Shown here in pieces: positions 4,383-20,597 of a stretch of DNA of 64,000 nucleotides. The translations under genes were made by a program, and so were the position numbers. The stretch is taken from positions 558,001-622,000 of the forward strand of contig NZ_OX458333.1 in the NCBI RefSeq assembly GCF_949769195.1, written 5' to 3'. The stretch comes from Methylocaldum szegediense (GTDB taxonomy: Bacteria > Pseudomonadota > Gammaproteobacteria > Methylococcales > Methylococcaceae). Positions within the stretch are counted from its first letter, which is position 1. Every line of letters starts with the position of its first letter. The notes under the pieces were generated by a model, which was not told where the DNA came from, searched no databases, and saw only the letters and a program-made list of their open reading frames with translations.

Positions 4383-4459
4383 GGTGACCGTAGCTCAGTT
4401 GGTAGAGCCCCGGATTGTGGTTCCGGTTGTCGTGGGTTCGAGTCCCATCGGTCACCCCA
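4383..4459 (+). tRNA. tRNA-His (GTG)
   Basis: Acceptor GTGACCG pairs with CGGTCAC. The extra G at -1 faces the discriminator C, the histidine identity element. Anticodon loop TTGTGGT gives GTG. CCA is encoded. Confidence 0.97.
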
Positions 4460-4486
4460 CGTTTAGCCCGTCAATCAACCCACGTC

Positions 4487-4562
4487 GGGCCATTAGCTCA
4501 GCTGGTAGAGCAGCGGACTCTTAATCCGTTTGTCGTAGGTTCGAATCCTACATGGCCCACCA
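4487..4562 (+). tRNA. tRNA-Lys (CTT), integration target
   Basis: Acceptor GGGCCAT pairs with ATGGCCC. The anticodon stem GCGGA/TCCGT holds loop CTCTTAA (anticodon CTT). CCA is encoded. From 4522 on, the gene is repeated exactly at 16132-16174, which marks it as the attachment site of the integrative element. The tRNA itself stays intact. Confidence 0.97.
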
Positions 4563-4564
4563 AT
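4522..4564 (+). repeat. attL core, 43-bp direct repeat
   Basis: The sequence from the anticodon loop of tRNA-Lys to 2 bp past CCA is identical to 16132-16174. Just upstream of both copies GGACTC is also shared, with a single T/A difference at the base between. Confidence 0.9.
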
Positions 4565-4574
4565 TAAAACAAAG

Positions 4575-4604
4575 GCTTGCGCGGTTTTCCCGGCGAGCTT
4601 TTTT
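4575..4604 (+). terminator. Rho-independent terminator after tRNA-Lys, supplied by the element
   Basis: GCTTGC (4575-4580) pairs with GCGAGC (4593-4598) with one G-T wobble, and six Ts follow (4599-4604). It lies inside the element, 10 bp past the att core, so the inserted DNA gives the tRNA transcript its end. Confidence 0.5.
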
Positions 4605-4606
4605 CA

Positions 4607-4625
4607 TGGTAGACGCATGGTAGAC
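4607..4625 (+). repeat. 19-bp terminal repeat, putative integrase arm site (left)
   Basis: TGGTAGACGCATGGTAGAC occurs here, 42 bp inside the left core, and again at 15987-16005 near the right end in the same orientation. Each copy is itself a doubled GGTAGAC. A further GGTAGACG follows directly. This fits an arm-type binding site of a tyrosine integrase. Confidence 0.55.
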
Positions 4626-4691
4626 GGTAGACGAAAAATCGAACGTCTTCGCCAGGGGCGTTTGACGGCCATTTGATTTCGTCACGGAAAC

Positions 4692-4722
4692 AAAAAACCC
4701 GGCCAAGGTTTCCCCGGCCGGG
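4692..4722 (-). terminator. Rho-independent terminator, leftward
   Basis: On the minus strand CCCGGCC and GGCCGGG form a strong stem around GGGGAAACCTT, followed by TTTTTTG. It ends the last leftward gene of the element. Confidence 0.75.
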
Positions 4723-4728
4723 CTGCGA

Positions 4729-5331
4729 TCAATGACCAGCCAAGCGAATCTTATCGGCGGCCTTGATATGTCCGAACGAATCGAAAAGCAGCCCGCCGGC
4801 TGCCATGATGAGAGTAAAATCGTCGGGGTAGCCTACAAGGTTGCTCACGCGCTCTCCGAATCGCCAAAAAACCGAATCGCTCCGCGAAACGCCGTCACCA
4901 GGAACCATTGCCTTGCAGCCCGAAAATAAGATCACGGCCGCGTTGTATGACTCTATTGCGTCGCCAAGCGTGTCAAGCTTTTCGGACATGGCGACATCCG
5001 GTTTCGCAAACGTCTTTATCAAGTGTCCATGCGCCAGAACGACCAGCTTGTCCATTATTTCCGCGCGCGTCTCGGGGCCATGGTGCGCGAACGCGACGCG
5101 ATCGGCTATCGCGAGCAATCCGTTCAGGTATTGAATAACGATCCCGACTCGCTCATCCTCGGTGATTTCCCAATTCTCGCCCCATTTGCGCGCTATGCTG
5201 CCATCGATCAGTACGTCAGCGCACGCCACCGCCGCGCCAAACAGATCGTTAGCAAGCGCTTCAATTTGTGCCATCAGCAAAGCCTTGTTGATGCGTTTTT
5301 TGTTGAAGAATTGACCTAGCTTTTTAAACAT
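4729..5331 (-). CDS. hypothetical protein of the integrative element
   Basis: I do not recognise this protein of about 200 residues. It is acidic, mostly helical, without a clear membrane segment, and begins with a Lys-rich helix (MFKKLGQFFNKKR). ATG 5331 is preferred; a TTG at 5343 would add four residues and sits against the preceding terminator. The gene stands alone between two nearly identical leftward terminators, so it probably has its own promoter, as accessory cargo genes often do. Its position at the left end of the element beside the tRNA suggests late-acquired cargo. Confidence 0.6.
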   Translation of the reverse strand: MFKKLGQFFNKKRINKALLMAQIEALANDLFGAAVACADVLIDGSIARKWGENWEITEDERVGIVIQYLNGLLAIADRVAFAHHGPETRAEIMDKLVVLAHGHLIKTFAKPDVAMSEKLDTLGDAIESYNAAVILFSGCKAMVPGDGVSRSDSVFWRFGERVSNLVGYPDDFTLIMAAGGLLFDSFGHIKAADKIRLAGH

Positions 5332-5343
5332 TTCAGTGTCCAA

Positions 5344-5374
5344 AATTAAACCCGGCTAGGTTCCCCCGGCCGGG
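5344..5374 (-). terminator. Rho-independent terminator, leftward
   Basis: On the minus strand CCCGGCC...GGCCGGG-type arms (one arm degenerate, TAGCCGGG) enclose GGGGGAACC, followed by TTTAATTTT. It closes the 5397-6119 gene group and closely resembles the terminator at 4692-4722. Confidence 0.65.
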
Positions 5375-5396
5375 TTCCGCTGCTATTGGTCGTTAT

Positions 5397-5603
5397 TCAA
5401 GCCGCTCCCGCCGCCCGGCATTGGTCGATCAGAAGCCCGGCCCGTTCAACTCTCAGCCGCACGTCGTTCAGGATCAGGTAAGCGCCGGTCGATCCGGGCT
5501 CCGTGGCGATCGATTCACAGCCGAGCGCGACTTGAATCGTTTCCAGGATATGTCCGACCTGCTCCAGGAGCTCGCGGGCGTCGTTCAGGTTCTGCCGTTC
5601 CAT
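5397..5603 (-). CDS. small hypothetical protein
   Basis: A 68-residue helical protein with a leucine-rich N-terminal half (NDARELLEQVGHILETIQVAL) and no recognised domain. A GAGGGG ribosome site overlaps the stop codon of the upstream gene, so the two are probably translated together. It is the last gene of a three-gene leftward group in the element. Confidence 0.55.
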   Translation of the reverse strand: MERQNLNDARELLEQVGHILETIQVALGCESIATEPGSTGAYLILNDVRLRVERAGLLIDQCRAAGAA

Positions 5604-5612
5604 ACGCGCCCC

Positions 5613-5864
5613 TCATCCGCCGATGACCGGAGAGACCGGCCCACGTTCCAGCGTTTCCCGCACGCAACTCAGGTCGTTCCCGATCGACTCGGACCAATAC
5701 AGAACCTGATCGGCCAGCCCCTGTACCGTCGGATCGTCCGACAAACGGCGAATGCCGCGCGCCAGCGCCATCAGATGGTCGCATTCGATTTCGCTGATCC
5801 CGATTACCTCGATCATCTGCTCGCGGTCCATGAATGCCGCGCGGTTTGGTGCATGAATAGCCAT
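5613..5864 (-). CDS. small hypothetical protein
   Basis: An 83-residue protein with a GGGGGG ribosome site at a good distance from ATG 5864. Its middle is helical with an acidic face (ISEIECDHLMALARGI). It resembles the small helical accessory proteins common in integrative elements, but I cannot name a family. It lies 12 bp after 5877-6119 and overlaps the ribosome site of 5397-5603, so the three form one transcription unit. Confidence 0.55.
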   Translation of the reverse strand: MAIHAPNRAAFMDREQMIEVIGISEIECDHLMALARGIRRLSDDPTVQGLADQVLYWSESIGNDLSCVRETLERGPVSPVIGG

Positions 5865-5876
5865 GAATGCCCCCCA

Positions 5877-6119
5877 TCACTTGTATTGCCGCGAAACCTG
5901 CACGACCGTCGCTAGATGGTCCATTCCAGGCGCCCACGGTGCCAGCTTGAAGCCGGGCGGGTTTTCGGCGCGAACGGCCACGATGTCGCCCTCGTCGGGC
6001 GGAACGTCGTCGAGCCGCACGCAGTCGCCCCGCCTGATATATGGGGCGAACTCGTCGGTCTCGACGCGCCAGAATCCGGCAGTCAGGTCGGTCGGGGTGT
6101 TATGATGCTGATTAGCCAT
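5877..6119 (-). CDS. small protein with S24/LexA-like beta motif
   Basis: An 80-residue protein with a near-perfect GGAGG ribosome site 8 bp before ATG 6119. The central stretch (FAPYIRRGDCVRLDDVPPDEGDIVAVR, split here only for description: residues about 24-50) has the GD..V.....P..GDIVAV pattern found in S24 peptidase folds of LexA and phage repressors. The protein is too short to hold the catalytic Ser-Lys pair, so proteolysis is not claimed. It is transcribed divergently from the RHH regulator gene and could take part in control of the element. Confidence 0.5.
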   Translation of the reverse strand: MANQHHNTPTDLTAGFWRVETDEFAPYIRRGDCVRLDDVPPDEGDIVAVRAENPPGFKLAPWAPGMDHLATVVQVSRQYK

Positions 6120-6211
6120 GATTGCAACCTCCGTACAGGTTTGCGGTTGTGGTCAGGGTCGGCGTGGTGTTGGCCCACCATGTCGGCCCGCTCTTGTAAT
6201 GCAATGTGTTA

Positions 6212-6252
6212 CCATTGGCGTTAATTACCGTATCATAGAGTAACGCTAATGG
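6212..6252. promoter_or_regulatory. inverted-repeat operator over the RHH gene start
   Basis: CCATTGGCGTTA (6212-6223) and TAACGCTAATGG (6241-6252) are inverted repeats matching at 11 of 12 positions, 17 bp apart. The right arm covers the ATG of the RHH gene. A -10-like TATCAT (6231-6236) lies between the arms. This fits autorepression by the RHH product. Confidence 0.5.
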
Positions 6253-6440
6253 CAATACAAGAAAAACGACTGAAAACCGAATCCATCAACGTCCGGGTGA
6301 AACCGGAAATCAAAAGACTCGCCGAGGAATTGGCGGAACGTGAAAATCGGACTCTATCCAACTGGGTCGAGTCGCTGATTCTGCGCGAAGCGGAAAAGGC
6401 GGGGATCCGGCCCAAGCGCGGCCCCGGAAGCACACGATGA
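6249..6440 (+). CDS. ribbon-helix-helix DNA-binding protein
   Basis: A 63-residue basic protein with the Arc/MetJ-type layout: a short beta strand (SINVRVKPEI, about residues 12-21), helix A (KRLAEELAERE) and helix B with NRTLSNWVESLILRE. Such dimers bind inverted repeats, and one covers this gene's start. The stop overlaps the start of the next gene (ATGA), so the two are co-translated. It could be an antitoxin or a transcriptional repressor of the element. No obvious toxin domain is seen in its partner. Confidence 0.7.
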   Translation: MAIQEKRLKTESINVRVKPEIKRLAEELAERENRTLSNWVESLILREAEKAGIRPKRGPGSTR

Positions 6441-7141
6441 CGTTTTTTTATCCTGCCGATGGCTTCCAGTCGTGCCCACTCTGCGGCGGAAAGGTTCCGG
6501 CCAGTTCCCGCTATCCTCGCGCCCTATGCGTCCAATGCGCCAGCGAAGCCACGGACGAGAACGGCCGCCGGCTAACCTTCGGTAATGTTGACGCGACTGG
6601 CGGGCTCCAGGTGCGCTACGCAGACACCGGCGAGACTCGGAATCGACCGTTTTGCTATGTCAGGGGCGTTAAATGCCTCGCGGAAGAGGGGCGTTTTGGA
6701 GGGTATGTGATTCAGCCGATTGAAACCCATTTCAAACTCTCGCCGGGTTGCTGGTACGGCTGGGAAATGTCGCCCGGCTACCTCGACGACGGAAAGCCCT
6801 ACTGCTCGCCAATTCTCGTGCGGTCGGTACGCCGGGTCGGGCGTCGATCGGATCGGTTGCACGTGCGGTTCTGGAACGTGCTCTATGCCGACGGGGTCCA
6901 GGATTTCGAAAAACGGCTGCACGTGCTCGAACGGGCGCCCGACCGTCTGACCGCCGCGATTGATCCCGGATACGGCCCGGATCGCCGCGCCGTCATCTGC
7001 GAAATTGATTTCCGTTGGATTGAGCGGCATTGTCCGAACATCCTGCGGTCGTTCCCGGTGTCCCGCTGCTCGCCGTCGGCTCACGGGTCGGTCTCGGCCT
7101 ACCTCACCGAAGTGTTTCTCTGCTCAGGATCGCCCGGATAA
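6437..7141 (+). CDS. zinc-ribbon-type hypothetical protein
   Basis: A 234-residue protein beginning with a CPLCGG...CVQC four-cysteine zinc ribbon (about residues 14-36), followed by a compact region with TFGNV, RYADTG and FGGYVIQP. I recall the first 95 residues as a small family in many proteobacteria. The second part (about residues 98-175) has a separate beta-rich look (CWYGWEMSPGYLDDGKPY). The function is unknown. It is coupled to the RHH gene by an ATGA overlap and overlaps the convergent 7124-7657 gene by 18 bp. The last 40 residues are low-complexity and may be read-through. Confidence 0.55.
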   Translation: MTFFYPADGFQSCPLCGGKVPASSRYPRALCVQCASEATDENGRRLTFGNVDATGGLQVRYADTGETRNRPFCYVRGVKCLAEEGRFGGYVIQPIETHFKLSPGCWYGWEMSPGYLDDGKPYCSPILVRSVRRVGRRSDRLHVRFWNVLYADGVQDFEKRLHVLERAPDRLTAAIDPGYGPDRRAVICEIDFRWIERHCPNILRSFPVSRCSPSAHGSVSAYLTEVFLCSGSPG

Positions 7142-7657
7142 CCTGGCAATCATCCGATCGATCTCTCGAACCATCGCCGTGCTGGTCCGCTCGACGTCGC
7201 TCCCGGCCGGATCGCGCCGCCAGGGTTTCGGGTCGGCCGGCGGTGCCGGATGTTTTGGTTCTTGCGCTTGCGGGGCGATCTCGCGCGCGTTTTCGACCGG
7301 GATCGGTAGGGTAGGATCGGGTTCCGGCGTTTCGTGCTCCAGCGCCGCCCTGTGCTCGCCTGTCGCGGGCTCCGAGTCGCTGGGCAGCAGTGGATTGACG
7401 GCGATCGGTGCGACATAGCCGGCCGGGTCGCCCTCGTAACGCTTCAACTCCCGCGCCGCCCGTTGCTTGAACGCCTGTTCCGTCTCGCCCGCCTCCCGGT
7501 GCAACTCCAGCGCCGTCGGCGATCCGATCAAGCGGCCGTGCATCCGGTAGCACTCCGGCCGATCGTCGAACCGGCCGACGATGCGCCGAACGATCAGCCG
7601 CGCGGGGTGCCGGCCGGCGGCGCTCTCTAGTCGTGCAATGCGATCTCTAAGATTCAC
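7124..7657 (-). CDS. phage-type hypothetical protein
   Basis: The protein is about 177 residues from GTG 7657, which has a GGAGAGG ribosome site and overlaps the stop of the preceding gene by 11 bp. The N terminus (NLRDRIARLESAAGR) and the REAGETEQAFKQRA stretch resemble small proteins I associate with terminase-adjacent genes in prophages. No enzymatic motif is seen. The C-terminal third is Pro/Glu-rich and probably disordered, ending in a helix. It is the last gene of the leftward SSB-capsid unit, and no terminase gene follows. Confidence 0.55.
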   Translation of the reverse strand: MNLRDRIARLESAAGRHPARLIVRRIVGRFDDRPECYRMHGRLIGSPTALELHREAGETEQAFKQRAARELKRYEGDPAGYVAPIAVNPLLPSDSEPATGEHRAALEHETPEPDPTLPIPVENAREIAPQAQEPKHPAPPADPKPWRRDPAGSDVERTSTAMVREIDRMIARLSGRS

Positions 7658-7928
7658 ATCGGTTCCTCTCCTGCTGTAGTTCCAGCGCCTCGACGCGCCG
7701 TTCAAGCTCGCCGGTCTCGATCAGCTTGCCGAGGGTAGCCAGGGTATACGTCAGTTTCGTTCCGTCGCTCGGATCGAGCCGCCCGTTCCGCATGTCCCGG
7801 TAAACCCGCGCCATTTCCCGCTGCACGTCCCGCAGCGTCGCCAATTTGATCCGGCGTTGCTGCGGACGGGGAGGGTTCGCGGGTAAATACTCCTGTCGCG
7901 GCTCGTCGGGCGGCATTGATTGACTCAT
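7647..7928 (-). CDS. small phage-type protein
   Basis: A 93-residue protein with a Pro-rich N terminus and a helical core (LATLRDVQREMARVYRDMRN, then a second helix ending in ERRVEALELQ). Proteins of this pattern occur beside terminase genes in some prophages; here none is present. No strong ribosome site is seen. An ATG at 7916 would be an alternative start. It lies between the coiled-coil gene and 7124-7657 in a leftward unit. Confidence 0.55.
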   Translation of the reverse strand: MSQSMPPDEPRQEYLPANPPRPQQRRIKLATLRDVQREMARVYRDMRNGRLDPSDGTKLTYTLATLGKLIETGELERRVEALELQQERNRCES

Positions 7929-7955
7929 AACGCGCGGTTTAGGCGGCCGTAACGG

Positions 7956-8912
7956 TCAGGTTTTGAGCCCTTTAGCGCGCCAATGGGCAAGCAGCGGTTC
8001 GGGGTCGATCGGCAGCTTCAGCAGCGCCGCCTTATCGATCAGCGGCCGGCCGTCGAATCCTGGGAGGCTTAGGAATCCGTAAATCGGGGTCGTCGGGTGC
8101 CGGTTCTGCGACTGAATTCGGCTGATTTGCATGAATCGTGCGTAGGCGTCGATCAGGTCGTTCGCGGCCTTGACGTAATCGAGTTGGGCGGCCTGTTCCT
8201 GTAGGGCGAGAAAACAGCGAAACGTTTCCTGAAATTCGGCCTCGGCCGCCTCAAGTGTGGCTTCGGCTGCGTGCAGTTTACGGGTGAGCCCTTCGTTCCG
8301 GATTCGGTCCCGCTCGGCCGTTTTCCGAGCGTCCGAGATTTCGGACTCCAGCCGGTCGATGTGTTCTACCAGCGCGGTTAGATGCTCGGCGTCCACCGGC
8401 GTTCCTGCGGCCTCGTCGGCCAGGATGTCACCGTACTGCCGTTTGAGCTCGGCCAATTCCGATTCGCGGGCGGACAGGTCGATCCCGGTTTGTTTCCCGA
8501 TCAGGGCGGCCAATCGATCCCGCTCGGCCTGCGCCACGTCGCGCGCCTGTTGAGCCCGCAGAACGTCGTCAAACGTCGTGTCGGGAACCGTTTTCATATC
8601 GCCCTCGATGGCGAGAATTTCGGCGTTCAGGCGGGCAATCTCGGCCTCGGCTGCGGCTGCGCCCTCGGTCGCTTTCCGGAACGCGGCGCGCAGTCGCTCG
8701 TATTCGGCTCGGGTCTCGTCGTCCGGGTATTCGCCGGCATTCTCCAGGTTCTGGATTGTCCGCTCGATGGCGTCCAGCCGGCGGCCGAGTTCCATTTCGT
8801 CCCGGCGCAGCCGTTCGGCCCGGTTCGTGGCCTCAACGTAGGCGCGGCGGGTCTCATCGAGCCGGGTTCTGATTTCGTGACGGATTGATACGCGATTGGT
8901 AACGGCGTTCAT
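7956..8912 (-). CDS. long coiled-coil protein next to the capsid gene
   Basis: A 318-residue protein that is almost entirely heptad-patterned from residue 10 to about 245 (repeated A/E/R/L runs such as RAERLRRDEMELGRRLDAIE). It ends in a non-coil domain of about 70 residues (TTPIYGFLSLPGFDGRPLID). No enzyme motif is visible. It starts 40 bp after the capsid stop. By position and shape it could be a capsid scaffold or a size-determining protein, but this is inference; a structural or DNA-organising role is also possible. Confidence 0.65.
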   Translation of the reverse strand: MNAVTNRVSIRHEIRTRLDETRRAYVEATNRAERLRRDEMELGRRLDAIERTIQNLENAGEYPDDETRAEYERLRAAFRKATEGAAAAEAEIARLNAEILAIEGDMKTVPDTTFDDVLRAQQARDVAQAERDRLAALIGKQTGIDLSARESELAELKRQYGDILADEAAGTPVDAEHLTALVEHIDRLESEISDARKTAERDRIRNEGLTRKLHAAEATLEAAEAEFQETFRCFLALQEQAAQLDYVKAANDLIDAYARFMQISRIQSQNRHPTTPIYGFLSLPGFDGRPLIDKAALLKLPIDPEPLLAHWRAKGLKT

Positions 8913-8952
8913 CTTTCGTGTTTCTCCGTGGGTCTGGTGAATGGATCGTGGT

Positions 8953-9930
8953 TCAGCCGGCTACGGCGTTGCGGATCAGACAGCCGAGCTCCGGGGAAAC
9001 GATGAATTCCTCGACGTACTCGCCGACGCGGACCACGTGCGCGCCCCGAACGGATCGGTTCGGCTCCTCGTAGGTCCACGCGAATCGGTCGCCCCATGCG
9101 GCCGTTGCACCCCAGCGGTTCGGGTTTCCGGCCTGCCCCATGTAGAGAAATGCCGCGTGCGGTCCCCATAACCGGGTCAAGCTCGCCGCTTGGCCTTTCT
9201 TCGCCGAGTTGTGCCAGGCGTCGCCGACGACAATACGATCGATCTCCAGTAGGTTCGCCACGGCGTCGGGTGTGGCGATCCCGGTATCAGCCCCATCCCA
9301 GATAGTCGCCTCGATGATTTTTGGGTGACGTGATATGTGAGTCCACGTCCGCCGCCCGAATACGGCGATATTCGGCCTCATGATGCACGTGTCCAGGGCG
9401 TCCATGATGGCTTTAACCGGGTCGCTCGACGGGTCGCTCCATTGGTCTGAACCGGCGAGCGTCTGAACGTTGCCGGCCGGGTAGCTGATACTGCTGAACA
9501 CCAGATTCGCAACGCGCCGCTCCCGGTCCAGCAAAATTAGGTCCGTCGTGTCCCTGGTCGCGTTCCGCTTCATTTCGTCCGGGTCCGGTGCGTTCGCCAA
9601 GTCATGCCAGGGAATGACGTGCTCCAGCCCGGCGCCGTGCACCGCGTCCAGGATTTCGCCGGCCGTGAACGAAACTTCGTTCGGCGCACTCTTACGCCCG
9701 ACGCGGGTATCCAGCCGCGCCAGCAACTCGGCCGCGTTCGTCGTCAGATATTTGAACTCCATGCTGGCGACGGGAATCCTCGGTAGAACCTCGTCGGCGA
9801 TGAACCGGTCATTACGGTATTCCCGCGCGACTTTCGTCAACTCTGGGCTGATCGGATACGGGGCATCGGCGAAGTCGAGGGTGCCGGCGCCGGTTTCCTC
9901 GTAATTGGACGTGAATTCAACGGTCTGCAT
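8953..9930 (-). CDS. phage major capsid protein (HK97-fold type)
   Basis: A 325-residue protein from ATG 9930, preceded by GAGGT. The N-terminal segment PELTKVAREYRNDRFIADEV with LPRIPV matches the start of one siphophage-type capsid family. Further matches are the central VFGRRTWTHI...HPKI, the LLEIDRIVVGDAWHN stretch and the C-terminal VRVGEYVEEFIVSPELGCLIRNAVA. A much longer open frame upstream overlaps ssb and is not coding. It lies 22 bp after ssb, so replication and capsid genes share a transcript. No portal, protease or terminase accompanies it. Confidence 0.82.
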   Translation of the reverse strand: MQTVEFTSNYEETGAGTLDFADAPYPISPELTKVAREYRNDRFIADEVLPRIPVASMEFKYLTTNAAELLARLDTRVGRKSAPNEVSFTAGEILDAVHGAGLEHVIPWHDLANAPDPDEMKRNATRDTTDLILLDRERRVANLVFSSISYPAGNVQTLAGSDQWSDPSSDPVKAIMDALDTCIMRPNIAVFGRRTWTHISRHPKIIEATIWDGADTGIATPDAVANLLEIDRIVVGDAWHNSAKKGQAASLTRLWGPHAAFLYMGQAGNPNRWGATAAWGDRFAWTYEEPNRSVRGAHVVRVGEYVEEFIVSPELGCLIRNAVAG

Positions 9931-9952
9931 GGTGGTTACCTCGCGAGTCAAA

Positions 9953-10372
9953 TCAGAAGGGAATGGCGTCGTCAAAACCTGGATCGGTGCCATATGCCGC
10001 GTTCCAGTCGCGCGTTCCTGAGCCGTTCTGCCGCGCCTTTGGCTTTTCCTTGCCGTCCGTATCGCCCCGCCGTTTGCGTGCGTCGTAGGCGCTAAGAATG
10101 CCCATTGCGGTGACGTTGAGCCCCTGGCGCGTCTCGCCGTCGCGGTCCCACGTCGTGAGCTTCGCCGGCCCAGCGACGGCAATGGAGTCCCCCGCTTTCA
10201 GCCGGCCCAACCGCTCGGCCTGGTCGCCGAACGCGATGACGGAAACAAGTTGCCGATCGTCCGCGCCCTCGACGGCTGCGGAAATCATCGCGGTGGTAAA
10301 TGCTTTACCGGATTGCCCCGTTCGGCGTTGCGGGTCGCGTAGCAGTCGGCCCGCGATTAGAACATCGATCAT
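9953..10372 (-). CDS. ssb: single-stranded DNA-binding protein
   Basis: A 139-residue SSB with an N-terminal OB-fold domain (IAGRLLRDPQRR, VSVIAFGDQAERL, LKAGDSIAVAGPAKL; about residues 4-95), a flexible charged linker and the acidic C-terminal tip DDAIPF that recruits partner proteins. An AGAGG ribosome site precedes ATG 10372. Its place between the RepA-like gene and the capsid gene suggests that it serves replication of the excised element. It is clearly distinct from a core ssb by its short linker and unusual OB sequence. Confidence 0.85.
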   Translation of the reverse strand: MIDVLIAGRLLRDPQRRTGQSGKAFTTAMISAAVEGADDRQLVSVIAFGDQAERLGRLKAGDSIAVAGPAKLTTWDRDGETRQGLNVTAMGILSAYDARKRRGDTDGKEKPKARQNGSGTRDWNAAYGTDPGFDDAIPF

Positions 10373-10526
10373 TGGCGTAGCCTCTCATCTGTCGAACAAA
10401 GTCGTCCGGCATCAGGCTCACCTCGTCGTTCTCCGATCCGTCGGTTCGTGTTATCGTTTTGCTCGGCAGGTAGTAGCCGAAAATCATCTGTCGCCCCCGC
10501 TCCGTCGGGGGTTTTTCGTGTCCAAA

Positions 10527-10544
10527 GTCTACCATCCGTCTACC
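10527..10544 (-). repeat. internal copy of the terminal-repeat motif
   Basis: On the minus strand GGTAGACGGATGGTAGAC differs by one base from the 18-bp core of the repeats at 4607-4625 and 15987-16005. It encodes the last residues and stop of the gene at 10529-10807. Confidence 0.4.
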
Positions 10545-10807
10545 GTCTGCCGCCGTCCGTGGCAAAGCCCCCGTTGCTCGGGCGTTTCAGGGTAGCCGAC
10601 AATGGATTCTGAATCCTTTTCCGCTCCGGCCCGCTCAAACTCTCCGCACGCGTGCCGGTCCAAACTCCACCAAAGCCCGCCCGCGCCGGGTGCTCGAATG
10701 CCCTTGGCGCAGTCGGTCAAAACCGGGTGCTCGGTCGTGACCTTGTGCCGGCAATCGGCGCAATGGATCGCCCCGGCGTCGCCCGTCTGTTCAGTCGGGG
10801 CGTTCAA
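10529..10807 (-). CDS. small cysteine-rich protein
   Basis: A 92-residue protein starting at TTG 10807 behind a strong GGAGG ribosome site. Cysteines at CADC, DCAKG and HACGEFE suggest a small metal-binding fold in the first 60 residues. The rest is polar. It lies between the iteron-like array and ssb and may be a replication accessory protein of the element. I do not recognise a family. The minus-strand region between it and ssb (10373-10528) could hold a further short reading frame that overlaps ssb, but support for that is weak. Confidence 0.5.
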   Translation of the reverse strand: MNAPTEQTGDAGAIHCADCRHKVTTEHPVLTDCAKGIRAPGAGGLWWSLDRHACGEFERAGAEKDSESIVGYPETPEQRGLCHGRRQTVDGW

Positions 10808-10864
10808 CGGGCTACCTCCAGAATCGGATTCTCACCAAGCCGAAACGGGTCGAAGATCGCCCAT

Positions 10865-11021
10865 TGCGCGATTGCTGCGCGGTGCTGCGCGAGTCTTCGC
10901 CAGAAAAAGAGAAGTGCAGTTCGCGCATTGGTGCGCGACTGCATTTTTCTCTATAAGGCCGCGCAGCAAACCCGCGCGCAGCAAACCGCGCAGTTTTGGC
11001 TTTGCTGCGCGAAGCTGCGCG
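10865..11021. repeat. iteron-like array beside the RepA-type gene
   Basis: Ten copies of TGCGCG or its complement lie within 157 bp, at 10865, 10876, 10886, 10922, 10932, 10960, 10975, 10987, 11006 and 11016. The longest shared unit is TTTGCTGCGCGG, present exactly inverted at 10959-10970. The stretch lies in the 216-bp gene-free gap after the RepA-like gene. This is the layout of a replication origin with iterons. Confidence 0.6.
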
Positions 11022-11023
11022 GC

Positions 11024-12244
11024 TCAAAGCGTCCACCTCGACGGTGCGAGAAAGTGGTACTTCCCGCCACGCGTTTTTTCGCCATCTGGCAACGGTTTTT
11101 CTACCAGCACGCCGCGCCGCAAAGCCGCTTTGATAACGTCGCGCATCGGGTCGCGCCCTATTCCGTCGAAGATTTGGTTACGTGCGTCAACCAAATCGTT
11201 TTGGGTGAACCGCTCGGTCGGCGTCTGTCGAAGCTTTTCTTCGACGTACGTGACGAGTGCCGATATTCGGGCGTCTAGCTGGCGCTCCCGTTCCCGGCGT
11301 GCATTCGCGCGCGCTTCGTCCTCGGTCGGGATTTCGATTCGCTCGAACAGCCAGCCTTTGCGCCTGATCCATATCGGGTCTTTCGGCTTTTTGGCGTCGG
11401 TCAGCTTGGTTACGTGAAGCGAGAGAATGTTTCCCTGCTCGATATCGGCCGGCGTTGCAATGCCCGCCGCCGCCGTGGGGTCTGGCGTCACAAGCTGGAA
11501 GACGGCTCGCGCACCATCGCCAAGCGCCGCGCCGCCGCGCCCGGTGTGGTGGTCGATAATGCCATCGCGGACAACGGCCTTGCTCGTGTGGTGAACCAAT
11601 TCCACCGCGCACCCAAGTGCACGCTGTAGCCGCATCGCCGCATTGATCGTCGCGTCCTCCGCGTCGTTCGGTGCGCGTTCGCCGGGTGAGAATTTCACCA
11701 GCGGGTCGAACGTGACGATCACGGGATTCACGTCCGCGTATCGCTCGACTATCTGGTCGGCCAAGGGGGTTATCTCGATATTGCCGCGCCCGTCGAACCG
11801 CGCTAGCCGTGCATCCGTGCCGACGAAATCGCGAATGTAGAAATTGTCCGCCACATACTTGCGCGCGCTTTCGTTCAATCCCATTTGGTCGCAAACCTGA
11901 AACAGCCGATAACGCAGCCGATCGGCGCCATCCTCCTTTGTGACATACAGGACAGGACCATCTAGCGCCGGCTCAATACCGAGAAACGGTCTCGACAGAA
12001 TGACGCATATGTTTCGCTGTAGCAAAAGCGTTGACTTGCCCATGCCGCCCGTTCCGATGAATGCACAAACATCGGCCGGTAACAGGTCGGGGAAAATGAA
12101 CTTTGGTTCATTGGGCGGAACCGTCAGCCATTCGAGCGGGATGCGATCGGTGTCCGGTCCCCAATTCGGCGGACCACTGCCGTCCGTGGCCAGGGTGGAC
12201 AGATCGCATAAATCGATCAGCTCGCCATTCAATGGAGCTTCCAT
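11024..12244 (-). CDS. RepA-like AAA ATPase (replicative helicase type)
   Basis: A 406-residue protein with a RecA-like ATPase core: Walker A GTGGMGKST at about residue 65, Walker B VIVTFDPL at about 178, and ELVHHTSK followed by RGGAALGDGARAVFQL. These are typical of the RepA hexameric helicases of mobile plasmids and of many integrative elements. The C-terminal 100 residues are basic and resemble a DNA-binding winged helix. It starts within the end of the preceding gene (16-bp overlap). The adjacent iteron-like array supports a role in autonomous replication after excision. Confidence 0.8.
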   Translation of the reverse strand: MEAPLNGELIDLCDLSTLATDGSGPPNWGPDTDRIPLEWLTVPPNEPKFIFPDLLPADVCAFIGTGGMGKSTLLLQRNICVILSRPFLGIEPALDGPVLYVTKEDGADRLRYRLFQVCDQMGLNESARKYVADNFYIRDFVGTDARLARFDGRGNIEITPLADQIVERYADVNPVIVTFDPLVKFSPGERAPNDAEDATINAAMRLQRALGCAVELVHHTSKAVVRDGIIDHHTGRGGAALGDGARAVFQLVTPDPTAAAGIATPADIEQGNILSLHVTKLTDAKKPKDPIWIRRKGWLFERIEIPTEDEARANARRERERQLDARISALVTYVEEKLRQTPTERFTQNDLVDARNQIFDGIGRDPMRDVIKAALRRGVLVEKPLPDGEKTRGGKYHFLAPSRWTL

Positions 12245-12795
12245 ATCCGCCCCCCTTCGTCTCGGCGCAAGATTTCCACTCGCGCCAACAGCCGGACGAC
12301 CGCATGGCTAGCGCCAGCCGTCAATACCAAACTGGCCGCGTGCAACAGGCTTATGTCGGTTTCCGGTCGTCCAACGGTGATGATGGCAACGTCCATCCCG
12401 GCCGCGAACGTCCAATCGTAGGCGCTCGGGTTGCGCTCGAACGGCAGCGCGACAAACGAGGTCGGAGGATCACCGTACTTGGCTTCTAGTTCGAAGCGCC
12501 GTGCCGCTTCGTCCATCGCGGCCGATCCGGTCAAAACCTCAAGCAGAGTTTCGCGGGTTCGCCGGAGCGCAACCACGCGCCGAGCATATGGCGGAAGTTT
12601 CGGACCAGAGGGGAAGGGAATAACTATGCGTTCGGCGTTATAATGGCTCCGCTCCGAAAAGCATCGCCCCCGGCCGTTCCCTTTTAGCGTGACCCGCTCG
12701 TGATGATCCCGAGCGCTCGGGGGCGCCCCATCCGAGCCGCCTTGAAACGCAGGGCGCACCTCTCCCGACCGCGTGTCGCGGTTGTCGAAGTCCAT
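12229..12795 (-). CDS. hypothetical protein of the replication module
   Basis: A 188-residue protein with an AAGGAGG ribosome site before ATG 12795. The first 60 residues are polar and probably flexible. The rest is an alpha/beta region with YDWTFAAGMDVAIITVGRPE and a C-terminal helix-turn-helix-like stretch (HAVVRLLARVEILRRDEGGRIW). The family is not recognised. It overlaps the start of the RepA-like gene and probably acts in the same operon as a replication or regulatory partner. Confidence 0.55.
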   Translation of the reverse strand: MDFDNRDTRSGEVRPAFQGGSDGAPPSARDHHERVTLKGNGRGRCFSERSHYNAERIVIPFPSGPKLPPYARRVVALRRTRETLLEVLTGSAAMDEAARRFELEAKYGDPPTSFVALPFERNPSAYDWTFAAGMDVAIITVGRPETDISLLHAASLVLTAGASHAVVRLLARVEILRRDEGGRIWKLH

Positions 12796-12809
12796 ACCAT
12801 GCCACCTCC

Positions 12810-13118
12810 TTACGCCGGGTCGGCGGACGTAGAAGCGCGGCTTTCCCGCAGCACGTGCTCCACGACAACGCGCTTCACGTACCGGACATGTCGCCCGTGC
12901 TTGATATACGGGATACCTACACCGGCCCAGCGGTCGCGCTCAAGTTTCGCTTCGGAACAGTCCATCCATGCCGCAACCTGGGCGGTGGTGACTAATGCGT
13001 CGGGGTGAGATTCCGCGAATTCGCGGGCGAGTTCGACGCGGCTCTTTGAGGGAGTGACCCGCTTGCTGATCACTCGATCATGAACGGTTGAAGATTCTGC
13101 GGTGCTAGAAGTCGCCAT
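12810..13118 (-). CDS. excisionase/AlpA-like helix-turn-helix protein
   Basis: A 102-residue protein with a winged-helix pattern in its C-terminal half: TTAQVAAWMDCSEAKLERDR followed by GIPYIKHGRHVRYVKRVV. This is the MerR/Xis layout in which an HTH is followed by a wing with a conserved Arg-Tyr. Such proteins direct excision or activate element genes. A GAGG lies before ATG 13118. The N-terminal 40 residues are Ser/Thr-rich and flexible. Confidence 0.72.
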   Translation of the reverse strand: MATSSTAESSTVHDRVISKRVTPSKSRVELAREFAESHPDALVTTAQVAAWMDCSEAKLERDRWAGVGIPYIKHGRHVRYVKRVVVEHVLRESRASTSADPA

Positions 13119-13206
13119 GTCTTAAACAACCTCGTTAGGTTTGTCTCAAAAACATGGCTAGCTTTATCGATCAGGCGGGGCGAGTCACGGAAAGTAAAAA
13201 AGAATT

Positions 13207-13974
13207 TTATTTTCCGAGTTCAAGCTTGTGCATTGCGGCCAGCTTCCAGTAGTCCCGATGGATTAGATTGTTAGCGGCTTTCAAATACTTATTGATCGTT
13301 TGCGGATCATCGATCCTCAGCCCGTCGGCAATCTCAGCCGCCCCTTTGTTTTCCTGCCGCGCATCGAAAGCACGTAGGTACAGTGGATATTTAGAGCGGT
13401 GATTCTTTCTGTGCTTGAAGCCGCGTATCAGCCCTTTTGTCTCGATGATTGTCTTGATGTTCTCGAACTGTGTTTCAAGCGGAAGGTCAAGGTCGATCGT
13501 GATGACAATCTCGCGGTCCGTTTCCGGCGTCAGTCCGGTTTTTATTCCGTAGTGCTCGTACACCTTGGAAATGTCGTACGTGAGCATCTTAGTCAAGTCA
13601 GTGTCAAACACCGGGGTGTTTGGCGGAAGACTTCGATATGGGTTGGGGACAGCAAGCAAAAGCTTTGAAAGGCGATAGCGTTCGGAAAAATATTCTCGTG
13701 GCGTTCCAATTCGCTTGCCACCTCGTAATGCAAACTGAGTGACTGATTCGCCCGGCATAGCGGCCGGTTCACACTTGCAGAACCGGGAGATAATCCCGTC
13801 AGGACGCAGTAAACCATCCCCTAGAGACTCCCTTGGCAGGCGGGCGTACTCGTCGTAATCCCGCCGATAGGATGGGTTTCGCCTGAAAAACTCCCATGCC
13901 CATTGATATAAGGACGTGGTGTCGGCGTCAGGGTAATCGGCCGGATTTTTCCAGTCTGGATTGTCGTTCTTCAT
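13207..13974 (-). CDS. DUF6499-type transcriptional-regulator-like protein
   Basis: A protein of about 255 residues whose N terminus (DWKNPADYPDADTTSLYQWAWEFFRRNPSYRRDYDEY, residues about 5-40, given here by its key DW..P and WAWEFLRRNP-type motif) matches a domain common at the head of regulators in proteobacterial integrative elements. The remainder has a Lys-rich middle and a C-terminal helical domain resembling a DNA-binding fold (AAEIADGLRIDDPQTINKYL). ATG 13974 has GAGGTGG; a GTG at 13986 overlaps the stop of a 21-codon leader. It probably regulates element genes. Confidence 0.6.
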   Translation of the reverse strand: MKNDNPDWKNPADYPDADTTSLYQWAWEFFRRNPSYRRDYDEYARLPRESLGDGLLRPDGIISRFCKCEPAAMPGESVTQFALRGGKRIGTPREYFSERYRLSKLLLAVPNPYRSLPPNTPVFDTDLTKMLTYDISKVYEHYGIKTGLTPETDREIVITIDLDLPLETQFENIKTIIETKGLIRGFKHRKNHRSKYPLYLRAFDARQENKGAAEIADGLRIDDPQTINKYLKAANNLIHRDYWKLAAMHKLELGK

Positions 13975-13982
13975 CCACCACC

Positions 13983-14048
13983 TCACGGCAGTGCTTCAAG
14001 ATGGTTGCCGCTCCAGCCGGCCAGGGTGATAGGATGAACAGTAGCCAT
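13983..14048 (-). CDS. possible 21-residue leader peptide
   Basis: ATG 14048 has GAAGGTG at a good distance and opens 21 codons (MATVHPITLAGWSGNHLEAL and one Pro). The TGA overlaps the GTG at 13986 of the next gene as GTGA, which would couple their translation. Upstream lies a 110-bp gene-free stretch with hairpin CCGGCGA/TCGCCGG. Too short to be sure. Confidence 0.3.
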   Translation of the reverse strand: MATVHPITLAGWSGNHLEALP

Positions 14049-14160
14049 GATTCACCTTCGTGGTAGGTGGTTGTGGTCAGGGGCGCCCGAGTGTGCCCGC
14101 ACTCTGGTGCCCCGCTAAATCGTCCGCGACCTCCCGGCGATCCTCTCGCCGGTTAGGGAT

Positions 14161-14562
14161 TCACAAGAAAGGGTTAATGACCGTCAAACGGCCGTCGAAT
14201 ACCTGCCCATGCTGCAAGTCCTCTGAATACAGGGTATCGCAGTTCGCCAATAGCGCCGCCGCCACGATCAGACTGTCCCAATGGGAAAGCGGATAACGCC
14301 TCACCAATCGGAACGCCTCCCGTAAAGTCGCCGTTTCGACCGGAACCACTTCACATAGATCGAGCAGGCTTTCGGCGATGTCATGAGCTTCCGCTAGGGT
14401 GAAACCATATTTTCGAGTCAAGACGCTGACGGTCTCGTTGATCACCTGGACACTGATTACCGGACGGTCCTCGATGATCGAGATCGCCCGCGTGGTCTTC
14501 TCGCCGTTCTCCGATTCCGCATAAATGAACAGATTGGTATCAGCGAAGACTCGGGCGGTCAT
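14161..14562 (-). CDS. PIN-domain toxin (VapC-like)
   Basis: A 133-residue PIN domain from ATG 14562. The first acidic residue is in ARVFADTNLFIYA, the central Glu in VINET, and the later acid in LSHWDSLIVAAAL. These form the metal-binding site of VapC-type ribonucleases, which cut RNA when the antitoxin is degraded. The start lies 23 bp inside the antitoxin gene, so both are co-translated. Position next to the integrase suggests a role in keeping the element in the population. Confidence 0.8.
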   Translation of the reverse strand: MTARVFADTNLFIYAESENGEKTTRAISIIEDRPVISVQVINETVSVLTRKYGFTLAEAHDIAESLLDLCEVVPVETATLREAFRLVRRYPLSHWDSLIVAAALLANCDTLYSEDLQHGQVFDGRLTVINPFL

Positions 14563-14758
14563 AGCACGCTTCCCGGTCAAATTTCTCCGCTTTGAATCGC
14601 CCGCGGTATTTCGCCAGGGTAGACAGCGCTTTTTCCCGGCGCGCCTTGTCTTCGATCTCTTGCTTGGTTTTCAAGCTTTCCGCAAAGCTCAAGACCTCGG
14701 CCGCTTGCTGCTCGGGCAGGGCCTTGACGGTTTCGTAAATCTTTTCAGCGATGCTCAT
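14540..14758 (-). CDS. antitoxin of the PIN toxin (DUF2281-like)
   Basis: A 72-residue protein with the opening SIAEKIYETVKALPEQQAAEVLSFAESL (residues 2-29; the key LP..Q..EVL.F...L pattern), known from DUF2281-type antitoxins paired with PIN toxins. The C-terminal Lys/Arg-rich tail would bind the toxin. It overlaps the end of the integrase gene by 4 bp (ATG/stop overlap) and the toxin start. Confidence 0.7.
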   Translation of the reverse strand: MSIAEKIYETVKALPEQQAAEVLSFAESLKTKQEIEDKARREKALSTLAKYRGRFKAEKFDREACYDRPSLR

Positions 14759-15969
14759 ACGGTCACCTCCCGTTTCAGTTCGACAATCTCAGCCGTGGGT
14801 TTCAGTCCAGCCGCCTTTAAAACAAAGTCCTCGATCTTCTGCATCGGCGCCCGCAGCCGCTCGGCCGTGACGATCACATAGCCGGCCGTCACGTCCGCCC
14901 CCGACTTATGGTTCATCAGGGCTTTCAAGGCATAGGCGGGAATGTCCAGCGAATCGGCAATGGTCGCGAACGTCCGCCGTAGATCGTGCGGGGTAAAGCG
15001 AACGCCGGATGCTTTCTCAATCGCGGCCAGGGCGTAGCGGAAATTCGAGATACGCCTGCCAGCGGAATCGGAAAAGACATACTCGGAAACAGAAAAGGCC
15101 TTGCGCCTGTTCATCAGTGCAGACAGATAATCGCCCATCGGCAGGGTATGGTCTCGCCTGTTTTTCGGGTCAACCACAGTTAGGGTGCGGCCCTTCAAAT
15201 CAACATCGGGCCACTTCAGATTAAGCGCCTCTTCCCGCCGCAGTCCGGTCAAAATCAGAACCTGGAAATAGTCGCCGATATCCCGGCTCGGCAGATTCAG
15301 CACGGCCTCGAACCAAGGCTTAAGCTCATGCGGCTTGATGACCGTCGAGCGCCGGTCTACCCGATACCATGCGCGAGTTTCAGACAAGACTGTTACCGGA
15401 TTCTCGCCGATCAGCGGACGGCCTTCGTCGTCTTTGTATCTGGCACGAGCAAAGTTAATGACCGCCCGCAGATAGCGGCACCCGAGATTAGCGCGCGCCT
15501 CAGAGCGCTGCTCTCCGAATTCTTTATGTCGCTTGGCGACCATCGCCGGGGTGATTCTGGTTATTGGCTTATCCAGCCAATCGGAAAACATTTCGTCCAT
15601 GGACGCACGCATGTCGCGCCGCGTTCGCTCCTTTAAATCCTTCCGGGCCTCCAGGTAATCGGCGAACGCCTCGTTCAGCGTCTTTTCCTCCAGCTTGGCG
15701 CGCCTCCTCTTGGCTACGGGGTCGCCGCCAGTTGCGATATCCCCGGCCAGCTTGAGCGCCTGCTTGCGCGCCTGGTCCGGTGTGAGTTCGCCATATCTGC
15801 CAATCGTGATCCGCTTGACTCGCCGATTGATCCGCTTTTCGAGAAAGAAGGATTTCACGCCAGACGGGAAAACCTTCATGCCGAAACCCCTGATCTCGTC
15901 GTCACGGTAGAACGTGGGGTCGGTCTCGGGAATGGGTAGCCGGTCGATTACGGATTTCGTCAGTTTCAT
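14755..15969 (-). CDS. P4-type tyrosine integrase
   Basis: A 404-residue protein from ATG 15969 (GGGGGG ribosome site). The N-terminal DUF4102-type arm-binding domain contains RDDEIRGFGMKVFPSG and ITIGRYGELTPDQAR. The SAM-like core-binding domain follows. The catalytic domain shows the Arg in TGLRREEAL, HDLRRTF, the His in LMNHKSG and the nucleophilic Tyr in TAGYVIVTAERL. This type integrates into tRNA genes, which agrees with the tRNA-Lys repeats. Two GGTAGAC-type repeats and a GAATCGT/ACGATTC inverted repeat (15981-15987, 16009-16015) surround its promoter region. Confidence 0.93.
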   Translation of the reverse strand: MKLTKSVIDRLPIPETDPTFYRDDEIRGFGMKVFPSGVKSFFLEKRINRRVKRITIGRYGELTPDQARKQALKLAGDIATGGDPVAKRRRAKLEEKTLNEAFADYLEARKDLKERTRRDMRASMDEMFSDWLDKPITRITPAMVAKRHKEFGEQRSEARANLGCRYLRAVINFARARYKDDEGRPLIGENPVTVLSETRAWYRVDRRSTVIKPHELKPWFEAVLNLPSRDIGDYFQVLILTGLRREEALNLKWPDVDLKGRTLTVVDPKNRRDHTLPMGDYLSALMNRRKAFSVSEYVFSDSAGRRISNFRYALAAIEKASGVRFTPHDLRRTFATIADSLDIPAYALKALMNHKSGADVTAGYVIVTAERLRAPMQKIEDFVLKAAGLKPTAEIVELKREVTV

Positions 15970-15986
15970 ATCCCCCCCTGGAATCG

Positions 15987-16005
15987 TGGTAGACGCATGG
16001 TAGAC
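15987..16005 (+). repeat. 19-bp terminal repeat, putative integrase arm site (right)
   Basis: Identical to 4607-4625, same orientation, 18 bp upstream of the integrase start and 126 bp inside the right core. The flanking GAATCGT...ACGATTC palindrome could let the integrase or a regulator repress the gene. Confidence 0.55.
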
Positions 16006-16131
16006 AGTACGATTCAAACAGCTTCAAAGACAGTCGGATTTATTATGCCATGTAAGCGACTGATTGCAAGCATGTTTTATGTCTCTTTCAAACTTGGTAG
16101 AGCTCGGTAAAACAGCCAAAACTAGGACTCA

Positions 16132-16174
16132 TAATCCGTTTGTCGTAGGTTCGAATCCTACATGGCCCACCAAT
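16132..16174 (+). repeat. attR core, 43-bp direct repeat
   Basis: Exact copy of the tRNA-Lys 3' part (4522-4564). Upstream a degenerate TTGGTAGAGC at 16094-16103 also resembles the tRNA D-arm, but no full tRNA can form. Confidence 0.9.
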
Positions 16175-16374
16175 CCAATCAGTCGCATCGATGTAAGCCG
16201 TTTTAGCTTCTGGCTTCTGCCCAAAAGCGTTTTTGCGCAGGCGCCGCGCTCGGATTATCGGGTTGAGATAGCTGCAAAACCGATACCTGCTTTGAACAGG
16301 CGTTTTTGCGGGACCACAGTTAGTTGAGCATGAATCAAGTGTGGCCGGGATGCGAGCGGTGGTTGAACACCCTC

Positions 16375-16510
16375 TTCCGCATCATCAAACGCCTGTTTGG
16401 TTATACCAAGCTCCATTACCGGGGCCTGCTCAAACATGCCAACAACTCTACCTACTGTTCGCCTTGGGGCACCCTTTATTACACGCGGGATGCGCTGAAG
16501 GGGTCGTCTC
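16375..16510 (+). pseudogene. C-terminal remnant of an IS5-family transposase
   Basis: In successive frames one reads KRLFGYTKLHYRGL, AQTCQQLYLLFALG and TRDALKG, the conserved C-terminal sequence of IS5-type transposases (FG..K..YRGL.KN..QL..LFAL.N). At least two frameshifts are needed and nothing upstream remains. Confidence 0.65.
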
Positions 16511-16759
16511 GGGATGAATCCGTTCTTAGTTTCGGAAAAACCGGGACGATGGCCGAAAGCAGGGCCCGGATCAGGCTCTCATCAAAAATGCGGCCTTCTT
16601 CGGTCTATTTTCCCGGTTTAGCTCCTCGCAGCCCCCATAACTTGCACTAATTTAGAGTTTCCGAAAAGTAGCACGGGAATTCTCGACTCTGAAAAGAGTT
16701 TGGGACAGCCGGAAGCATGCCTTGTTCAGATTCGTCACGGAATCGAAAAGAAGATGCGC

Positions 16760-16789
16760 TTGTGCAAGCGTACTGAGATTTTTTATAAT
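16760..16789 (+). promoter_or_regulatory. promoter of tRNA-Thr
   Basis: A perfect TATAAT (16784-16789) lies 14 bp before the tRNA. TTGTGC (16760-16765) is 18 bp upstream of it. Confidence 0.6.
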
Positions 16790-16803
16790 GCGCGCTTCAT
16801 GAC

Positions 16804-16879
16804 GCCGGTGTAGCTCAGTCGGTAGAGCAGCACATTCGTAATGTGCGGGTCGTAGGTTCAAATCCTATCACCGGCTCCA
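16804..16879 (+). tRNA. tRNA-Thr (CGT)
   Basis: Acceptor GCCGGTG pairs with CACCGGC. The anticodon stem GCACA/TGTGC holds loop TTCGTAA (anticodon CGT). CCA is encoded. Confidence 0.97.
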
Positions 16880-16954
16880 ATTCTTACAGGTAGGACCGTT
16901 CTGTGTCTTCGGTTCCGGGACACTTTAATCTCCGGGTAACATGCTGGAGATAGC

Positions 16955-20180: not shown

Positions 20181-20597
20181 GCCATTGCAATCTCTTGACC
20201 GTTCATTCGGTACCCTGAACGAATATCTAGGACGGCAAGGCGAAATTCCGCTGTTCGACTAGTTTTGGCATTTGAGTTAACCGACGCCGGTCATTCGCCG
20301 ATAGAGACTTCTTTCTTCAAATTCGAATGTAGCGCGGGATTAAAAAATTGGCATTCGTCCAATTTTGACGCATATGATCGGATTTAGGCCTGACGCAGCT
20401 GAAGCGCGCCGCTGATGCGGTGTGGAGAAGCTGCGAAGCTTTCCGGCGTCGTTTCCAGAGCCTGCTAGCGCCTTTGGACTCGAGGAATATAGAGTCGTAG
20501 TTGGGTTATGCTTCGTTTAACTGTCAACGCCGACTGAAAAGTGACCCCTTTTGAGGGTTTATCGCCGAAGTAAAATTGACCCCTTGAGGCCCAAAAG

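Follow-up and report, generated by a model that had tools for sequence, protein, structure and literature searches.

The window analysed here, a 64,000-nucleotide stretch of the Methylocaldum szegediense genome, holds an 11.65-kb element that is integrated in a tRNA-Lys gene (4487-4562) and bounded by direct repeats (Table 1). The recognised genes of the element follow one another on the minus strand in the order integrase, Trans_reg_dom protein, phrog_2528 protein, orf188, repA, orf92, single-strand DNA-binding protein (SSB) and major-capsid-like protein, with a repeat array between repA and orf92. An SSB homologue likewise comes after the array in the related locus L087. By our own reading, the phrog_2528 protein is AlpA- or excisionase-like, a name that no search match gives it. 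The capsid-like gene is adjoined by a coiled-coil-like gene (7956-8912), and neither a terminase nor a portal could be recognised in the proteins scanned. The small element would accordingly be a satellite that carries a capsid gene, or else a reduced prophage. Relative to its closest relative, dN/dS values range from 0.14 to 0.48 across the nine genes tested (0.22 for repA), indicating that selection maintains the element. Repeats of GGTAGAC(G) are located near both element ends (4608-4633 and 15988-16005) and once inside, beside orf92 (10527-10545), and GGTAGACG is present in eight copies in the window (five in the element), compared with 1.0 expected. These repeats are perhaps integrase arm or excisionase sites.

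Table 1. Features of the integrated element and of the region behind repA (positions in the window)
Feature	Position	Strand	Basis or remark
Integrated element	4522..16174	.	43-bp direct repeats: attL 4522-4564 (tRNA-Lys 3' end), attR 16132-16174
Major-capsid-like protein	8953..9930	-	phrog_1005, E 6e-79; element cargo, outside the origin
Single-strand DNA-binding protein (SSB)	9953..10372	-	Pfam SSB 5e-9, phrog_44
orf92, downstream of the array	10529..10807	-	TTG start behind GGAGG; ATG in relative
repA-orf92 intergenic gap, holding the entire proposed origin	10808..11023	-	ORF list; 95.8% identity to L011/L003
Iteron-like repeat array	10865-11021	.	six GCTGCGCG units and TGCGCG counts
GCTGCGCG units	10874-10881(+), 10884-10891(+), 10960-10967(-), 10975-10982(-), 11004-11011(+), 11014-11021(+)		
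Covariance-model match	10903..10970	-	R1 55.9 bits; R2 27.1 bits (within the weak-match range), E 2.1e-5 in 167 kb, at 10902-10969
Central hairpin (predicted)	10908..10952	-	RNAfold; inner stem containing two facing TGCGCG; arm covariation over 18 loci
Conserved motif CCTTATAGAGAAAAA	10944..10958	-	
repA	11024..12244	-	RSF1010-RepA-like helicase, Pfam AAA_25 3e-26, C-terminal winged helix
Winged-helix-coding part of repA, proposed repeat reader	11039..11320	-	AF2 pLDDT 94.6
orf188	12229..12795	-	overlaps repA start; no primase domain detected in scans
Small protein, phrog_2528	12810..13118	-	phage family of unknown function
Tyrosine integrase	14755..16017	-	Pfam Phage_integrase and Arm-DNA-bind_3

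The array begins 2 bp past the repA stop codon and stops short of orf92. An earlier note on this DNA had described ten TGCGCG units beside a RepA-type gene, and the count over both strands of the array is exactly ten, although the copies at 10922 and 10932 are arms of the central hairpin and not full repeat units. Several copies were said to lie within a longer motif in both orientations. This holds for GCTGCGCG, which occurs six times and in both orientations, and for the 10-mer TTGCTGCGCG with four copies, whereas the full 12-mer TTTGCTGCGCGG, of which TTGCTGCGCG is the core, occurs only once. The gap was also taken to be the only gene-free one in the replication module, which is incorrect because 10373-10528, between the SSB gene and orf92, is also without a clear gene.

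In 2000 dinucleotide shuffles, TGCGCG was found on average 1.4 times (maximum 6) in the 216-bp gap and 2.2 times (maximum 8, compared with 10 observed) in the 157-bp stretch of the array, and composition thus does not reproduce the density. The shuffle maximum of TTGCTGCGCG was one copy, and that of GCTGCGCG was three in the gap and four in the 157-bp stretch. At larger scale, the hexamer is unremarkable, with 59 copies over the whole 64 kb (75 expected) and 16 in the replication module at 8953-13118 (9.7 expected; matched in 73 of 2000 shuffles). Every 157-bp window of the 64 kb that starts outside 10700-11100 contains at most two copies, and the array is therefore local. No other 220-bp window within 4401-16900 carries a 9-mer four times.

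The closest relative is an IMG/VR contig (L003/L011) with the same module. Outside indels, its identity to the window is 95.8% in the gap, 90.3% in repA and 89.8% in the capsid gene, and its gap has one extra 19-bp unit. A non-coding gap that is better kept than repA while its unit number changes is the pattern expected of an iteron array, but recent shared recombination could also raise the identity. Among the stretches compared, 10373-10528 (98.7% identical) is second only to 14161-14580 (99.3%), which encodes a PIN-like toxin by our own reading. The latter adjoins a stretch of only 52% identity (13207-13986), and parts of the element have therefore probably been exchanged.

The array is interrupted in its middle by a conserved motif and a predicted hairpin. 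Among 18 aligned loci, the motif word C[CT]TATAG is found in 14 and the longer form TATAGRGAAAA in nine. Variants such as CCCTTAAGG or CCTAAG are present in L026, L027, L038 and L040, and the motif was not seen in L045. The hairpin is bordered by an A-run on one side and a T-run on the other. When the hairpin arms of the 18 loci were paired in fixed windows with no folding, the pairing energy was -21.5 kcal/mol with their own partners and -13.3 kcal/mol with those of other loci (0 of 20000 permutations), and three control window pairs were not significant. This test supersedes one in which the arms were taken from the predicted fold of each sequence, a procedure that favours own partners. The outer stem alone, which is located away from the units, gave -8.1 compared with -5.6 kcal/mol (0 of 20000 permutations).

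We also evaluated how the unit preceding the motif pairs with the inverted unit that comes next. There were 28 cells with double-sided changes, compared with 8.7 in shuffles (0 of 500), the covariation score was 0.46 compared with 0.16 (0 of 500), and 92% of the cells were paired, compared with 30-58% in slid controls. Two of the five measures, double-sided pairs (5 and 4.3 in shuffles) and further pair types (12 and 10.6), were at the shuffle level. Because the units agree within a locus, such covariation is expected from protein-read repeats and alone is no proof of a fold. Of the two tests, that of the outer stem speaks more strongly for the putative hairpin.

More distant relatives of RepA, with approximately 25-42% amino acid identity, were collected by protein similarity. 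Family alignments found more of them than the window RepA by itself, and many are viral contigs. As a lone query, the window RepA returned one viral contig and no match in the genome contig collection. A search of genomes across the phylum with the profile of the RepA family yielded nothing new apart from the host. Duplicates were dropped (L003, L009 and L077, equal to L011; L031 to L026; L032 to L027; L034 to L025; L066 and L093 to L041; L008 to L024; L094 to L043; and L080, L081, L085, L086, L088, L091 and L092, each from a contig already present). L043 (contig edge), L036 and L046 (weak relatives) and L029 were left out of the counts, and repeats are visible by eye in L046. L029, which lies elsewhere in the genome (G000:C1:2553775-2554431), is a distant paralogue of the RepA type with an integrase-like gene near; no element was seen there, and no R1 match (see below) was found in 20 kb. 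The 32 loci counted are partly non-independent, as the window and L011 are close and L026 and L027 belong to one genome. L054 was first found through the motif, and the protein search also returned its contig (L086). L059, a 4.9-kb contig with no RepA match, is included only in the 18-locus motif, hairpin and R1 sets.

The DNA behind repA bears repeats in the relatives, and the unit differs between loci and agrees inside each, for example ACCTCGCC, ATTGCGCC, ATTCCGCC, AATCCGCC, ACTGCGCC and ACCCTCGC. The conservation beside repA proposed in the earlier note thus applies to the place and design of the array, but not to the unit sequence. In an automated test that took 500 bp from the estimated end of the winged helix, one 8-mer was present at least four times behind repA in 27 of the 32 loci, compared with 3 of 260 other gene 3' ends of the same loci. 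This re-anchored test replaces an earlier one with queries running through the array (at least four copies in 13 of 32 and 1 of 259, respectively). The 8-mer occurs in both orientations in 23 of the 27 array-positive loci and in a single orientation in L082, where it is part of a different tandem array, L084, L087 and L095. No 8-mer reached four copies in L028, L045, L054, L090 and L098. After L003, the RepA of L078 (42% identity) is, among the relatives collected, the nearest to that of the window, and its unit, CGCTGCGC, is likewise the nearest.

That the array is a dispersed host repeat of the REP or MITE type, or an accident of composition, might be suggested by its G+C-rich, palindromic units. 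However, the gap is single-copy in its genome, where the 17 other matches listed are all short with E-values of 0.9 or worse, the density exceeds that in shuffles, and repeats recur behind repA in the relatives. The host repeat was rejected because its genome has no second copy of the gap, and we assign this explanation a negligible probability.

The same repA-plus-element design is found in a natural 37-kb plasmid of Methylomagnum, pRS11DPr4 (L024). This plasmid also contains 34 tandem copies of an 18-bp repeat (L024:8531-9144) that is built on the unit of its repA-side array. It has a possible second rep gene, with a sub-threshold RepB_primase match among 10 of its 35 proteins that were scanned. 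Its GC skew is noisy, with the detrended minimum at 20526, in repA, and the raw minimum at 34021.

Two covariance models were prepared, R1 from 18 loci including the window and R2 from 12 other loci excluding it. In 369 genomes of the class, R1 (E<=0.001) and RepA (E<=1e-20) matched the same four genomes at five places. All five places are R1 training loci, and the agreement therefore shows specificity and not new detection. Among 12 loci outside the R1 training, five matched at E<=0.001 and eight at E<=0.05, and every match listed for them is at or overlapping the repA 3' end. Four of the 12 (L078, L096, L097 and L098) gave no R1 match at E<=1. With E-values of about 0.001 or better, R2 found seven of eight held-out sources, among them the window. 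In 301 Methylococcales genomes, R1 matched three RepA genomes and three weak places (24-29 bits). The weak places fall within ORFs of 226-658 aa, and the stretch around each gave no match to RepA; one of them (L105) has 8-mers present four times nearby, and the other two have none above two copies. Because the R2 score of the window falls in the range of these weak matches, its weight rests on the correct location.

A motif-only scan of viral contigs returned 24 stretches, about six of which appear element-like by eye (L051, L052, L054, L059, L066 and L067; L051 and L067 are one contig, and L066 is L041). R1 was run on these stretches except L051, L061, L064 and L067. L049 and L052 gave no R1 match at E<=1, and 15 of the stretches outside the element-like six, together with BPP-1 and BUCT618, gave none above 13.3 bits. 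At L051:13927-13954 and L052:681-708, CCTATAGAGAAAA is accompanied by TCTCACAC-like repeats approximately 60 bp behind a 597-aa gene, which is a Toprim-helicase by our own reading and does not resemble the RepA family in BLAST. Judging by these two loci, the motif may reach beyond the RepA family. Because L052 lacks an R1 match, we keep these repeats as a lead only.

The orientation and folding of the element bear on whether it acts as DNA or RNA. Of the 23 repA-bearing loci with an R1 match at E<=0.001, four (L042, L054, L082 and L089) have the element in inverted orientation with respect to repA, and in several loci it overlaps the repA 3' coding end (e.g. L023, L025, L026 and L027). A structured RNA of the repA operon, such as an attenuator, a bidirectional terminator or a small RNA, would be consistent with the folding of the repA-sense strand of the window gap (z -5.3 relative to shuffles) and with the A- and T-runs on opposite sides of the hairpin. 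However, the opposite strand folds even better (z -6.7), the inversions and the overlap with coding sequence speak against an operon RNA, and Rfam at the gathering score found only tRNAs in the window. The inversions, the overlap and the folding of both strands favour a DNA site over an mRNA element. An RNA element was rejected as the best reading on the basis of the four inversions and the better fold of the other strand, and we consider it very unlikely. Less likely still is a site at which a phage-like element is packaged (cos/pac) or recombines. The capsid-like gene and the many viral contigs among the relatives would agree with such a site, but the array and hairpin accompany repA in a plasmid as well as in bacterial genomes, and the ends of the integrated element carry a separate set of repeats, GGTAGACG, close to the att repeats.

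The AlphaFold model of RepA (mean pLDDT 81.7) is most similar to RSF1010 RepA (Foldseek 1nlf, TM 0.80 by target length), which was also the sole significant PDB match of the RepA family profile (E 9e-17). As modelled, RepA is a predicted ring helicase of the RSF1010-RepA type. Residues 309-402 alone were modelled with a pLDDT of 94.6 and gave high-probability matches to winged-helix DNA-binding domains, with E-values of 0.01 or worse. A Pfam scan of the window RepA found no primase or Toprim match. Among six relatives scanned, L026 has a Prim-Pol domain, L028 has PriCT_2 and Toprim_3, L024 has a sub-threshold Toprim_3, and the RepA proteins of L025, L027 and L023 have AAA_25 only, with a sub-threshold Zn-ribbon in the gene upstream of repA in L023. 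With units assigned by eye in 25 loci, unit distance correlated with winged-helix distance (Mantel r 0.30, p 0.007) and with that of the helicase domain alone (r 0.27, p 0.014). When helicase relatedness was removed, the correlation with the winged helix was not significant (r 0.17, p 0.055). The winged helix of RepA probably reads the units, a role for which this correlation test is borderline.

Taken from the sequence comparisons, the array is very probably the initiator-binding part of a composite iteron-plus-stem-loop replication origin that belongs to the adjacent repA. The earlier note, which proposed a plasmid-like origin, overlooked this composite nature, in which the array is one part beside the conserved motif and the hairpin. 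A replication origin remains the best reading, but with its capsid-like gene and SSB the host element looks phage- or satellite-like rather than like a plain plasmid. The winged helix of RepA would bind the units as double-stranded DNA, and the bound RepA rings would load at the A-rich motif, whereupon the region would melt. Melting would expose the hairpin for use in loading or priming, a role that is a guess with slightly less than an even chance, and the host polymerase and the element SSB would then copy the excised circle. We infer that the excised element may replicate autonomously. The element-specific unit would provide each element with a distinct address, by which related elements would stay compatible.

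Iteron arrays can act as control loci. The array could accordingly be a RepA-bound control site for autorepression, copy number or incompatibility, with the true origin elsewhere in the element. Its position behind and not before repA would agree with this role, as would the second array of pRS11DPr4, in which that plasmid's unit is tandemly repeated 34 times further downstream. In contrast, the conserved motif and the co-varying hairpin exceed the needs of a binding array, and the single cluster of repeats within 4401-16900 leaves no second candidate window of this kind. We regard a control site as improbable.

Beyond the composite origin, the variation of the units suggests a more speculative scheme, which we think has well under an even chance. 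A fixed chassis, consisting of the C[CT]TATAG motif and the co-varying hairpin, may carry a swappable address of 8-10 bp, making up a re-addressable origin family, possibly with a conformation switch. The address would be present both in the units and in the hairpin. The winged helix could recognise a given unit as duplex DNA, or the unit could instead pair with its inverted neighbour. Pairing of a unit with its inverted neighbour would exclude the central hairpin and could thereby provide a DNA-conformation switch for initiation.

Several known systems share parts of this design. As described in PMC7581432, SaPIs have an iteron origin directly behind the rep helicase gene that is recognised by the C-terminal domain, and SCCmec Cch2, reported as a 3'-to-5' helicase, behaves in a SaPI-like manner on a putative origin. 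Short repeats right behind a helicase gene and the integrative setting are common to the window and this SaPI and SCCmec pattern-2 rep/ori arrangement. Unlike in these elements, the helicase of the window is RSF1010-RepA/DnaB-like (RecA fold), and its units are approximately 8-10 bp, mostly in both orientations, with the motif and the co-varying hairpin in the middle. RepA-bound iterons are also used in the Vibrio PLE, according to part of PMC7145576.

Replication of the Sulfolobus plasmid pRN1 requires a stem-loop located behind its rep gene. This stem-loop can be moved and is reported to be, together with the replication operon, necessary and sufficient (PMC4234260). The stem-loops of pRN1 and, as proposed, BIP-1 are conserved in structure over sequence and lie behind a primase-helicase-winged-helix gene, and BPP-1 is said to be nearly identical to BIP-1 (the same part of PMC4234260). 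The window resembles pRN1 in having a structure-conserved stem-loop behind the rep gene, as indicated by the arm covariation over 18 loci. However, pRN1 lacks iterons and its helicase is of the SF3 type with prim-pol, whereas the window has iterons and an AAA_25/RSF1010-RepA-like helicase. In BPP-1, we found no motif, no 8-mer above two copies and no R1 match behind the primase gene.

RSF1010 oriV combines iterons with short hairpins that are used for priming (PMC4234260, in part). The core of the window RepA has its closest solved structure in the RepA of this IncQ plasmid (1nlf), with a hexamer predicted. The iterons of RSF1010 are read by RepC, a separate protein, whereas the window RepA has its own winged helix, and some relatives fuse primase-type domains into the same protein as RepA. 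No RepC or RepB' primase domain was recognised among the element proteins scanned, where orf188 and others have no family match. The P4 alpha protein unites a helicase and a winged helix and binds origin repeats (PMC4234260, in part), a likeness to the window RepA that is drawn from this description only. P4 alpha also has a Toprim primase, for which the window RepA gave no match; Toprim_3 was matched in two of the six relatives, one of them below the curated cut-off. In the literature searched, which left most subscription journals outside, there was no description of the origins of these elements, and none of it printed the six forms of the motif word.

The element would join two origin designs, iterons with a winged-helix initiator and stem-loops that follow the rep gene, and it would do so with a helicase of the RSF1010-RepA type. 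It would offer a concrete signature by which the replication origins of a group of elements, whether phage-like, plasmid or integrated, can be searched for. With a fixed chassis and a variable address, initiator-origin specificity and compatibility would become testable by swapping units and winged helices. If the origins are indeed re-addressable, rapid change of the address would sort the elements into compatibility groups.
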